Below are positions 16,098 to 18,938 of a stretch of 64,000 nt of DNA, piece by piece; the first letter of the stretch is position 1, and each line of letters opens with the position of its first letter. Source of the DNA: Candidatus Poseidoniaceae archaeon (GTDB lineage: Archaea > Thermoplasmatota > Poseidoniia > Poseidoniales > Poseidoniaceae); assembly GCA_949372645.1 (NCBI GenBank), contig CASIAP010000002.1, positions 1 through 64,000 on the forward strand. Reading direction: 5' to 3'. Under the pieces are notes generated by a model, which searched no databases, was not told where the DNA came from, and was given only the letters and a program-made list of their open reading frames with translations. A program made the position numbers and the translations under genes.

Positions 16098-18068
16098 ATG
16101 ACCATCGTTGCAAAGGTGTGGATTGAAGAAGATTGTATTACCTGTGACGCTTGTCAAGACATCTGTCCTGAAGTGTTTTCAATTACCGACGACACTTCAC
16201 AAATTTTAGCTGCAGTTCGGACTGACGGTCTCTTCGATCGTAACGTCGGTGGCGCAACAATGTCAGGTTCTTTTGGAACTGATTACGGTGAAATGATTCT
16301 TGAAGCTGCTGAGGCTTGCCCTGTTGAAATTATCAAGTTTGAACTCCAAGGCGCTGGAACAGATGAAGCAGTTACCGAAGCTGCACCTGCTGCAGCCGTA
16401 GCTGACGCAGTAGCACCTGCTGCAGCAGCAGTCGTTGCCACTGGTGGCAGTGACGCATTGCAAGGCTTACTTGGCGGTGACCGCTCATTAGCAATCTTGT
16501 TTGGTTCTCAAACTGGAAATGCTGCCGGCCTTGCTGAAAAGACCGCTAAGTTAGCAGCGAACTACGGTTTGATTCCAACCGTCTATGATATGGATGGGTT
16601 TGACCCTGCTACACTTGGCAGCCACAAGCGCACCCTGATCATCACCTCGACATGGGGAGAAGGCGAAATGCCAGATAATGCTGAAACATTGTGGCAATCA
16701 GTGAATTCCCAATCCCCTTCACTCTCAGGTGTCTCTTTCAGCATCTGTGCAATCGGTGACACCTCCTATGATGAATTCTGTAAGGCAGGAACAGATTGGG
16801 ATGAGAAATACGTCGCTCTTGGAGCAAACCGTATCCATGCAATTCAATTATGCGATGTTGATTTTGACATCGCTTATGGTCAATGGGTTGCAGAAGCACT
16901 TCCAATGATTGCTTGTGTGGATGAGTCGGGAACACTCCAAGAAGTTCTTCTCGAGGAAATGATCGAATATGGATCAGGTTCTGGGGAAGACGTCGTTTCA
17001 GGAGACTTTACTCCTGCATCGATTGTTCAAAATGAATTATCCATCACCCTTTCTTTGTTCCGTTACTGCCCATCAGCTGCAGATACCGGATGGGATACAA
17101 TTGCTTGTGCCATCCCCGGTCATGCTACCATTGAAGACCTTCTTGTTGCAGTCCAACATGATGTCGACGGCAGCCTTGCGTTCCGTCGTGGAAATGGAAA
17201 CGGCAGTCCAACTTCCGGCCTCAGAGTGAATGGTCGTCTTGTTCTTGCCGATTTGATTCAAATCAGCGATTTGGTTAGTGATGGAGGAGTCTTGAAGATT
17301 GAACCGATCCCAGGCTATCCAGTCATTCGAGATTTAGTGGTGGATTATTCTTCGTTTGAATCCCAACGAAGTGCAGCTAAGCCGTGGATGCGTGCAGACC
17401 CTCGTGATGGCCACACCTTGCTCAATGGAAGTGCAATGGGGACGATGGAAATTTCCACCGCCGCTACGCTCCATGCTATGTCAGACGTGGTCTCCTATCA
17501 GTTACTGCAATCCATGTCGGATACCTTTGCTTATGATTCAGAATACAAAGGGCCAGGAGTACTTCTCCAACAATGGACTCGAAGTATCGACCCTCGTTCC
17601 GGCACTGCTCAACAGAAAGAACTCATCGATTCAATTGGAAGCGAACACGGTGTATGGTCTGAAGCTGATTTCGCCTCTGTCGCACGCTATGGCTCCGACG
17701 GTCGAACAGCATCAAGGGCCTTGAACACAGCTCGTGGAAAACTCTTGAATTCGACAAATTACACTGGACCTCATGGCCGATTGGTCAAATGGTATGGTCG
17801 CAGTGTTAAATGGAGTGGTAAAGTCAATGAAACAACTCTTTACCGTCAAGTTCTCGGCCCACTTGGCCTCTTGGGTAACATCTTTGATGGCGTTTCAGCA
17901 CGAATGGTCCTTGGATTCACTCGAACCGGCTCACCTCCATTCCGAAGTTTACAAGCACTTTTACTTCCTCCAGCCGGTATTGGTAAAATTCCAAACATGA
18001 TTAACAGCAAAGTCGCAGCTCATCATGAAGTCGTCAATTTGTTTAATGAAATTGACCAGAGATTCTGA
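16098..18068 (+). CDS. Ferredoxin-flavodoxin-SdhB-like fusion protein with cysteine-free SdhB part
   Basis: A 656-residue multidomain protein. Residues 8-80 are a [4Fe-4S] ferredoxin (C13, C16, C19, C23 and C74). An Ala/Val-rich linker follows (84-115). Residues 130-272 are a flavodoxin-like domain with the FMN loop GSQTGNA (136-142), TSTWGEGE and AIGDTSYDEFC. Residues 312-550 follow the iron-sulfur subunit of succinate dehydrogenase/fumarate reductase: FRYCPSAA, SLAFRR, VNGR, LKIEPIPGYPVIRDLVVD, KPWM, KGPGVLLQQWTRSIDPR and HGVW. Yet every cluster cysteine is gone: after SLAFRR the loop reads GNGNGSPTSG, and the CxxCxxC segments read STAATLHAM and SEADFASVARYG. The last hundred residues are not recognised. 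It could be an electron-transfer or scaffold protein. The gene lies 9 nt before an HdrB-like gene. Confidence 0.8.
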   Translation: MTIVAKVWIEEDCITCDACQDICPEVFSITDDTSQILAAVRTDGLFDRNVGGATMSGSFGTDYGEMILEAAEACPVEIIKFELQGAGTDEAVTEAAPAAAVADAVAPAAAAVVATGGSDALQGLLGGDRSLAILFGSQTGNAAGLAEKTAKLAANYGLIPTVYDMDGFDPATLGSHKRTLIITSTWGEGEMPDNAETLWQSVNSQSPSLSGVSFSICAIGDTSYDEFCKAGTDWDEKYVALGANRIHAIQLCDVDFDIAYGQWVAEALPMIACVDESGTLQEVLLEEMIEYGSGSGEDVVSGDFTPASIVQNELSITLSLFRYCPSAADTGWDTIACAIPGHATIEDLLVAVQHDVDGSLAFRRGNGNGSPTSGLRVNGRLVLADLIQISDLVSDGGVLKIEPIPGYPVIRDLVVDYSSFESQRSAAKPWMRADPRDGHTLLNGSAMGTMEISTAATLHAMSDVVSYQLLQSMSDTFAYDSEYKGPGVLLQQWTRSIDPRSGTAQQKELIDSIGSEHGVWSEADFASVARYGSDGRTASRALNTARGKLLNSTNYTGPHGRLVKWYGRSVKWSGKVNETTLYRQVLGPLGLLGNIFDGVSARMVLGFTRTGSPPFRSLQALLLPPAGIGKIPNMINSKVAAHHEVVNLFNEIDQRF

Positions 18069-18077
18069 GGTGATTGT

Positions 18078-18938
18078 ATGGCTATTAAAATCGCATATTA
18101 TCCCGGTAACGCTGCACGAGCAGCCTCTTCTGAAATTGAAGACTGTATCCAACCCTTGTGCAAGACGCTCGGAATACAGTTGGTCGAAATTCCCAAGGCA
18201 AGCAGTGATGGTGCAAACATCATCAAACAATCCTCTCCAAAACTTCAACATGCTCTGGTAGCCCGTAATCTTGCTTTGGCAGAATCCAAGGGCTTAGATG
18301 TCTTGACGACCTGTGCAACCAGCCATGGAATTATGTGTGATACCATTGAAGAATTCCGTGAAGATCTCAGTTTTGCCAACCATGTCAACAATATTGTTGC
18401 CCGAACTTCCAATGTTGAATATATGGGTGAATCCCAATCTCGCCATTTGTTACATTTCCTCGTCGAAGAAATTGGACTTGACAAAATCCGAGATGCTGTC
18501 ATTAATCCGATTCGATTGAACGTTGCTGCCTATTACGGGCCAAACATGCAACGCCAGGGTGCTTGTGGAGAGGATGATGCGTTTATGCCAACCTACATGG
18601 AACAACTCATTACTGCCATAGGAGGCACACCTGTTGAATATGATTTGAAATGCCAGAGTGTCGGAGCTCCTTCTTTGCTAACCATCAACAAACCTGTTAT
18701 GCAAATGACTGCAGCTGTGCTTTCTGATGCAAAAAGTAGTGGAGCAGACATTCTTGTCTCAGCGTGCACTCTTTCTCATTCCAACCTTGACTCGTATCAA
18801 TCCAAGGCCGGAAAAGTAGCTCGAAAAGATACGACAATGCCGATTCTTCATCTTGCTGAAATGGTTGCCTTTGCTTTGGGGCATTACCCAACTCGATTTG
18901 CACAGCTTCGCACACGTGCGTTAGTAATCGGTGGCTAA
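18078..18938 (+). CDS. HdrB/SdhE-like CCG-domain protein lacking most cluster cysteines
   Basis: A 286-residue protein with the two-repeat layout of HdrB, SdhE and related CCG-domain proteins: AYYPG at the start, GLDVLTTCATS in the middle, AAYYGPNMQRQ opening the second half, GADILVSACTLSHSNLD near residue 222-238. In active relatives these repeats carry PGC, CCG, CATC, YYGC, CCGG and ACPLC cysteines that bind non-cubane iron-sulfur clusters. Here the matching positions read PGN, SDG, CATS, YYGP, CQSVG and ACTLS, so only single cysteines remain. A GAGGTGA ribosome site lies four bases before the ATG. It follows the SdhB-like fusion by 9 nt; both genes show the same kind of cysteine loss, so they very likely work together. 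Confidence 0.78.
   Translation: MAIKIAYYPGNAARAASSEIEDCIQPLCKTLGIQLVEIPKASSDGANIIKQSSPKLQHALVARNLALAESKGLDVLTTCATSHGIMCDTIEEFREDLSFANHVNNIVARTSNVEYMGESQSRHLLHFLVEEIGLDKIRDAVINPIRLNVAAYYGPNMQRQGACGEDDAFMPTYMEQLITAIGGTPVEYDLKCQSVGAPSLLTINKPVMQMTAAVLSDAKSSGADILVSACTLSHSNLDSYQSKAGKVARKDTTMPILHLAEMVAFALGHYPTRFAQLRTRALVIGG

Follow-up and report, generated by a model that had tools for sequence, protein, structure and literature searches.

In methanogens, thiol:fumarate reductase includes TfrB, a fusion protein with an SdhB part followed by an HdrB part, and homologues of HdrB act on heterodisulfides. Non-classical succinate:quinone oxidoreductases of type E (SdhABE), such as the methylmenaquinol:fumarate reductase (MFR) of Wolinella, have an SdhB followed by an HdrB-like SdhE with CCG motifs (PMC2680327). 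We identified a gene pair homologous to both of these subunits in a 64,000-nucleotide (nt) stretch of DNA from a Candidatus Poseidoniaceae archaeon (assembly GCA_949372645.1, contig CASIAP010000002.1, positions 1 to 64,000; hereafter, the window). Unlike the type-E complexes, the pair has lost all SdhB and most SdhE cluster cysteines, no SdhA gene adjoins it in the window, and a ferredoxin and a flavodoxin have been added. We refer to the homologous parts as SdhB* and HdrB*, the asterisk marking a paralogue without cluster or catalytic residues; G numbers denote genomes (G000 is the source genome) and L numbers denote fetched loci. On balance, we favor the interpretation that the pair is a split diflavin electron relay, built on the cluster-free SdhB-SdhE half of a type-E complex II.

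The first gene is an intact open reading frame (ORF) at 16098-18068 on the plus strand, and its product has 656 amino acids (aa). Residues 1-85 (16098..16352) are a single-cluster [4Fe-4S] ferredoxin domain (Pfam Fer4_13, residues 10-80, 39.4 bits versus a cut-off of 24.5). The ligands C13, C16, C19, and C74 are invariant in all 29 aligned relatives that have this domain; C23, which the first-pass annotation listed with them, is retained in only 12 of the 29. An Ala-rich linker (residues 86-127, 16353..16478) leads to a flavodoxin domain of the CysJ/P450-reductase type, predicted to bind flavin mononucleotide (FMN), at residues 128-275 (16479..16922). This domain matches Flavodoxin_1 (Pfam, residues 133-253, E 1.3e-25), the NCBIfam cysJ model (residues 129-272, E 1.1e-33, far under the curated cut-off), and CysJ and P450 reductase in the PDB. 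Across the order, the P-loop motif is present in 48 of 49 core FMN domains, and three FMN binding-loop motifs, by patterns of our own definition, are kept in 48, 49, and 42 of them. SdhB* occupies residues 313-550 (17034..17747), with matches to Fer2_3 (PF13085; residues 318-420, 39.0 bits, cut-off 27) and to the NCBIfam SdhB model PRK05950 (residues 315-521, E 2.1e-20, far under the curated cut-off). The agreement of Pfam, NCBIfam, and Foldseek matches upholds the fusion of ferredoxin and flavodoxin to an SdhB-like region that had been proposed in the first-pass annotation. The remaining 106 residues (551-656, 17748..18065) form a conserved C-terminal tail. A 9-nt gap (18069..18077), in frame with both genes, separates this ORF from HdrB* (18078..18938, plus strand), a 286-aa HdrB/SdhE homologue that matches the NCBIfam models TIGR03288 (130.8 bits, E 5.8e-38, short of the curated cut-off of 345) and NF042965 (E 3e-37).

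All 12 SdhB cluster-cysteine positions are substituted in the 656-aa protein (N, S, S, D, V, Y, L, S, E, F, V, and G), based on alignment to five type-E SdhBs of other Thermoplasmatota (L207, L209, L214, L216, and L219) and one normal Poseidoniales SdhB. The complete loss noted at first pass is real, and the Gly, Asn, and Ser named there as replacements are seen; the Thr and Ala also named are absent. The loss is shared by order-wide homologues, as 46 of 49 have none of the 12 cysteines and L078, L079, and L088 have one each. The eighth position is Ser in all 49, and because 9 of the 49 have a Cys one residue ahead of it (M473 in the window copy), a shifted alignment remains conceivable there.

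HdrB* has undergone a parallel loss. Its C-terminal CCG site is lost in all 47 sequences, with only C230 remaining. The N-terminal site is lost in 40, and both sites are disabled in the window copy. Seven sequences, four from one family (L048, L074, L078, and L079) and three from the other (L066, L075, and L077), have an intact N-terminal site, and all seven accompany a ferredoxin-bearing architecture. The second cysteine of the CxxC is missing from the N-terminal motif in 40 of 47 and from the C-terminal motif in 47 of 47. C79 and C230 are invariant in all 47, as are H123, H234, D238, Y240, Q241, R63, R273, and R280. Judged by outgroups, which suggest its direction, cluster loss looks as if it proceeded stepwise in both families.

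Homologues of the 656-aa protein were found in 138 of 145 Poseidoniales genomes, including all 33 that are at least 90% complete; seven genomes had no match. A homologue is also encoded in the single-contig Marine Group II (MG-II) genome CM001443.1. HdrB* is located 3-12 nt downstream of the SdhB* gene in all 80 named loci (tblastn, with the HdrB* start taken from the alignment). In G005, two flavodoxins, SdhB*, and HdrB* make up one 987-aa ORF (L051:3871-6834), with ~25 residues absent at the joint. A conserved SdhB*-HdrB* gene fusion was considered and rejected, as the fusion in L154 (L154:7054) is due to an ambiguous base at the stop codon and only G005 remains. A phylum-wide profile search of 292 genomes detected no full-length relative outside Poseidoniales among the matches listed. 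Matches listed from outside the order reach only across profile positions 2-216 of 351, and no full-length relative appears in the six listed class-mates of family f3.

Comparison with seven named relatives from the 80 named loci indicates strong constraint. The ratio of nonsynonymous to synonymous substitution rates (dN/dS; 8 of 42 values were not computable, and dS is near saturation in many pairs) is 0.026-0.127 for SdhB*, 0.032-0.047 for HdrB*, and 0.010-0.045 for the tail, the lowest of any segment. Values are 0.035-0.062 for the FMN domain, 0.057-0.092 for the ferredoxin, and 0.159-0.369 for the linker, the highest among segments. Given these low ratios, SdhB*, the tail, and HdrB* are under purifying selection, and since selection persists without the cluster sites, we infer a docking role for SdhB* and HdrB*.

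An AlphaFold2 model of the joined pair has a mean predicted local distance difference test (pLDDT) score of 62.6 and a predicted template modeling (pTM) score of 0.36. The FMN domain is mostly at pLDDT 76-91, SdhB* at ~63-86 outside one weak stretch, HdrB* is mixed, and the ferredoxin and tail are below 50. Foldseek aligned this model to SdhB 6lum_B over 246 columns (target TM 0.81, E 6.2e-12) and to HdrB 8rvu_B (target TM 0.83). When the N-terminal domains were left out, a second model (pLDDT 62.4, pTM 0.46) kept the HdrB fit (0.85) and showed a poorer SdhB fit (target TM 0.45-0.54). The first model, of moderate confidence, retains the SdhB fold in SdhB*.

Among relatives that keep the cysteines, the closest ones seen are encoded in SdhA-SdhB-HdrB operons from other members of the Thermoplasmatota. 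The five SdhBs and five HdrBs read from these type-E operons retain their cysteines. An HdrB* profile finds the HdrB of type-E operons at E down to 4e-72, and the conserved tail is shared with two type-E SdhBs (L214 and L216), a similarity that emerged solely in a hidden Markov model (HMM) search of the fetched loci. Together these similarities point to descent of the pair from a type-E SdhB-SdhE pair.

Succinate oxidation is presumably carried out by a separate, normal SdhCAB. Regarding a normal sdhB elsewhere in the genome, a matter raised at first pass, the answer is mixed. None was found in the 84% complete source assembly, where the second Fer2_3 match is, by inspection, a xanthine-dehydrogenase-type small subunit. 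A normal SdhB (Fer2_3, E 1.1e-24 or better) is present in 46 of the 48 genomes searched, with G000 and G039 the exceptions. Normal SdhA is followed by normal SdhB in G002, G047, and G024; the gene order in G002 is SdhC-like, SdhA, SdhB, with a flavin adenine dinucleotide (FAD) reductase ~2.5 kb upstream.

A complex II-related protein that we designate SdhA* is encoded apart from the pair. It is a separate PF02910 family of ~540 aa, detected by PF02910 matches in the source genome (L292, contig C9:55295-55618), in G002 (L293), and elsewhere (L298-L309 and L312). The best NCBIfam model for L292 is sdhA_frdA (258 bits, cut-off 567 not reached), followed by nadB (207 bits). The two PF02910 matches in G000 are SdhA* and, by inspection, NadB. 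The Arg and His residues of the SdhA motifs have catalytic roles. In the 14 aligned SdhA* sequences on which our counts rest, the Arg of the RGEGG motif is replaced by Leu in all 14, the HGANRLGG Arg and the AH(F/Y)xMGG His are lost in all 14, the HPTG His is lost in 11, and the FAD-linking His is lost in all 14 (8 by gap); G024 showed only a diverged 202-aa open frame. Another 15 SdhA-type sequences, a set without NadB, keep all five residues. Losing just the FAD-linking His would not be inactivating, because FAD is bound noncovalently in the Wolinella MFR (PMC2680327). SdhA* shares the DQD and RDDxxxxKHT motifs with type-E SdhA and groups with it, on long branches, in a tree without NadB (Shimodaira-Hasegawa-like approximate likelihood ratio test [SH-aLRT] 96.9); a tree with NadB drew a program warning of long branches coming together. 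That SdhA* forms one complex with SdhB* is a guess, and the genes are not adjacent. Several SdhA* loci have a HIT-family gene nearby (by inspection). A second, distinct full SdhA of 585-590 aa, with the catalytic motifs kept, occurs in G003 and G113 (L310 and L311), with no SdhB recognized alongside in the fetched stretch.

The carriers attached to this scaffold vary. The N-terminal slot ahead of the constant FMN domain is empty in some proteins (Fld) and occupied in others by either a ferredoxin (Fd-Fld) or a second flavodoxin (Fld-Fld); architectures in genomes without a fetched SdhB* locus were assigned by match range and ORF length. A quick tree of 49 SdhB* sequences implies a minimum of 14 changes in the ferredoxin trait. 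We also identified the FAD domain of a CysJ-type reductase that would use reduced nicotinamide adenine dinucleotide phosphate (NADPH) in 136 of 145 genomes, including 33 of 33 high-quality genomes, and it usually lacks an FMN domain. In G002 this FAD/NADPH reductase is located between biotin-carboxylase-type and CrtI-like genes near sdhCAB (L041:1478-11000; names by inspection).

We tabulated both traits for 88 genomes, a set that omits G073 and G137, in which the SdhB* architecture is unassigned, and genomes without a fetched reductase locus. The reductase is FAD-only in 65 of the 88. An FMN domain is part of the reductase in 10 of the 12 Fld-only and 13 of the 33 Fld-Fld genomes but in none of the 43 Fd-Fld genomes, so that all cases fall in genomes lacking the ferredoxin (23 of 45, versus 0 of 43 with it; Fisher p 5.8e-9, not tree-corrected). 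An independent-pairs test on 45 rows gave 11 pairs on starred branches. The two traits changed in opposite directions in 5-7 of these pairs and in the same direction in none, and ~5 pairs showed no difference (median p 0.03, range 0.016-0.063). The G003 reductase ORF meets a contig edge; it is counted as FAD-only in the table and omitted from the pairs. In a quick tree of FMN domains, which holds two reductase domains (G037 and G072) twice, reductase and extra N-terminal copies fall close to core domains in each of the two families separately. In G144, the N-terminal flavodoxin (N1) and the reductase FMN domain are sisters. The FMN domains of the reductase and of the SdhB* protein thus share ancestry, and in our reading these two proteins act in a single electron path and have exchanged FMN modules.

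We predict the following electron path. NADPH would reduce the FAD of the separately encoded CysJ-type reductase, which would pass electrons to the FMN domain that is always fused to SdhB*. From there, electrons would move to a second one-electron carrier, which may be the ferredoxin in this protein and a second flavodoxin or the reductase FMN domain in most relatives without a ferredoxin. The second carrier would then reduce an acceptor docked on the cluster-free SdhB*/HdrB* scaffold. Cofactor occupancy, the direction of electron flow, and complex formation are all predictions from sequence.

Candidate acceptors were sought in 48 Poseidoniales genomes. A sulfite reductase, suggested by the likeness to CysJ, was rejected, as NIR_SIR (siroheme) was found in 0 of 48. 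A census of complex I families covered NuoE, NuoF, FrhB_C, and NuoH. NuoH (NADHdh) is present in 46 of 48 genomes; the two without a match are G005 and G030, and the SdhB* branch of G030 is unusually long. FrhB_C was found in none, and Complex1_51K (NuoF) and NuoE each occur in only two (G017 and G018), within the same ORFs (L285 and L286). Most of the genomes searched thus encode complex I without a recognized input module, although canonical NADH dehydrogenases are reported for these archaea in a survey (PMC6336850). In Campylobacter, complex I without NuoE/F accepts electrons from flavodoxin (PMC4178425). Since most of these genomes lack a recognized input module and the Campylobacter complex is flavodoxin-fed, we conjecture that complex I is the leading candidate acceptor of the SdhB*-HdrB* relay, a guess by analogy.

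A more extended proposal is that the whole ancestral complex II has been kept as a ghost (SdhA*, SdhB*, and SdhE*), an iron-sparing docking platform with exchangeable carriers that feeds NAD(P)H electrons into a complex I lacking any known input module. We regard this proposal as tentative and rather unlikely in full. Phytoplankton are known to replace ferredoxin with flavodoxin when iron is limiting (PMC5322553, PMC10287166), and we speculate that the repeated iron-sulfur-to-flavin replacement seen here is likewise iron-sparing.

Several observations weigh against the relay and its proposed coupling to complex I. In G017 and G018, both of which keep SdhB*, a NuoG/hydrogenase/formate-dehydrogenase-type gene adjoins a NuoEF-type ORF. 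The neighboring gene of G018 has its best score as hydrogenase/NuoG-type, and its end matches formate-dehydrogenase alpha (the fetched stretch is incomplete); an NADH or formate module may therefore be present in both genomes. A soluble ferredoxin donor would account just as well for the missing NuoE/F, and any tie of the pair to complex I is indirect. The reductase is absent from the window and was not found in the 84% complete source assembly. Because 20 of 33 Fld-Fld genomes have a reductase without an FMN domain, the link between reductase and ferredoxin is one-sided. The tree used to count ferredoxin changes was a quick one, and its 49 rows are enriched for contrasting architectures. Finally, the SdhB*-HdrB* interface is unreadable, as the models average pLDDT 62-63 and the ferredoxin and tail fall below 50.

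Alternatively, the pair could be a general electron donor to biosynthetic enzymes (radical SAM enzymes, ribonucleotide reductase, or desaturases), replacing soluble ferredoxin or flavodoxin, with SdhB*/HdrB* only docking the clients. The CysJ/P450-reductase-type FMN domain, the separate FAD/NADPH reductase, the lack of sulfite reductase in the 48 genomes, and the near-universal presence of the pair are all compatible with this role, and we consider it a serious, if less probable, competitor. However, no client was recognized among the neighbors (no genome-wide client search was made). A thermosome gene is located upstream of the pair, and a helicase/nuclease-type gene followed by ribosomal protein genes is encoded downstream on the opposite strand (names by inspection). 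Retention of complex II subunits would also be unexplained.

The invariant residues of HdrB* raise the possibility that the pair is itself an enzyme. With its clusters lost, the HdrB pocket, which includes C79 and C230, could bind a thiol, disulfide, or metal substrate or reduce it with electrons supplied by FMN and ferredoxin. The eight other residues conserved in 47 of 47 sequences would suit such a site, HdrB homologues have heterodisulfide activity, and some catalysis may survive in the seven sequences with an intact N-terminal site. Against this, the second CxxC cysteine is lost in 40 and 47 of 47 at the two motifs, no metal or thiol motif was identified, and the pair persists in 40 relatives without either cluster site. 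Overall, we find an enzymatic role doubtful.

Far less credible is the idea that SdhB* and HdrB* are relics in the process of decay, hitchhiking on a useful ferredoxin-flavodoxin. Loss of the SdhB sites in all 49 homologues, of the HdrB C-terminal site in 47 of 47, and of the N-terminal site in 40 of 47 would be expected of relics, but dN/dS is 0.010-0.127 across SdhB*, the tail, and HdrB*, lowest in the tail; both genes are retained; and it is the N-terminal carrier that varies, not the scaffold. A sequencing or assembly artefact or a chimeric gene model is refuted by orthologues in 138 of 145 genomes and in single-contig CM001443.1, even though the ambiguous stop-codon base in L154 illustrates how a fusion can be faked.

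The split relay remains our preferred reading, and it extends the first-pass annotation, which proposed a redox protein using the SdhB fold as a scaffold. That proposal is supported in part, as it fits the shared cysteine loss, the moderate-confidence fold, and the purifying selection. It overlooked the conserved tail after the SdhB part and, beyond the protein itself, the HdrB/SdhE neighbor with its parallel loss, the type-E ancestry, SdhA*, the ferredoxin/flavodoxin swap, and the coupling to the reductase. Its statement that it knew of no described protein with this domain order agrees with our full-text literature search, which found no description of the 656-aa protein in the text within its scope (subscription papers and supplements fell outside). 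In the available portions of a survey of archaeal fusions (PMC11237513), Poseidoniales and Hdr fusions are mentioned and the SdhB* fusion is not among them.

The component parts are all of known kinds; what our searches suggest to be new is their arrangement, a cluster-free complex II scaffold whose carriers can be exchanged. The locus offers a natural case in which a respiratory iron-sulfur module without its cluster residues is strongly selected and joined to flavin carriers in a widespread marine archaeal order, and it documents at the genome level how ferredoxin and flavodoxin have repeatedly been exchanged at one step. It also points to a testable answer to the question of what donates electrons to Poseidoniales complex I.

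Compared with TfrB, the pair has the same order of SdhB and HdrB, occurs as a single chain in G005, and weakly matches NF004898; it differs in being cluster-free, in having FMN and ferredoxin modules, and in usually being encoded by two genes. CysJ and NADPH-cytochrome P450 reductase have the same type of FMN domain, and the FAD/NADPH half is encoded elsewhere in the genomes of relatives. In those enzymes the FMN domain accompanies the FAD half, whereas here it is fused to SdhB*, and siroheme sulfite reductase is missing from all 48 genomes. A possible parallel case, suggested by the models, is the Helicobacter pylori protein 3kwl (PDB, function unknown), which Foldseek aligned across both parts over 647-661 columns (661 for the joined model, E 1.6e-14). 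The identity is only 14%, with a target TM of 0.44 and a root-mean-square deviation of 19.9, and a sequence profile did not retrieve 3kwl. Like Campylobacter, most of the genomes searched encode complex I without NuoE/F, and flavodoxin, the donor there, is a candidate here; however, Campylobacter uses soluble FldA with adaptor proteins (PMC4178425) rather than a complex II-derived scaffold, and the link here is conjectural. As in the response to iron limitation (PMC5322553, PMC10287166), an iron-sulfur carrier is swapped for an FMN carrier at the same step. Unlike that response, the swap involves fused archaeal domains and is fixed in the genome rather than regulated.

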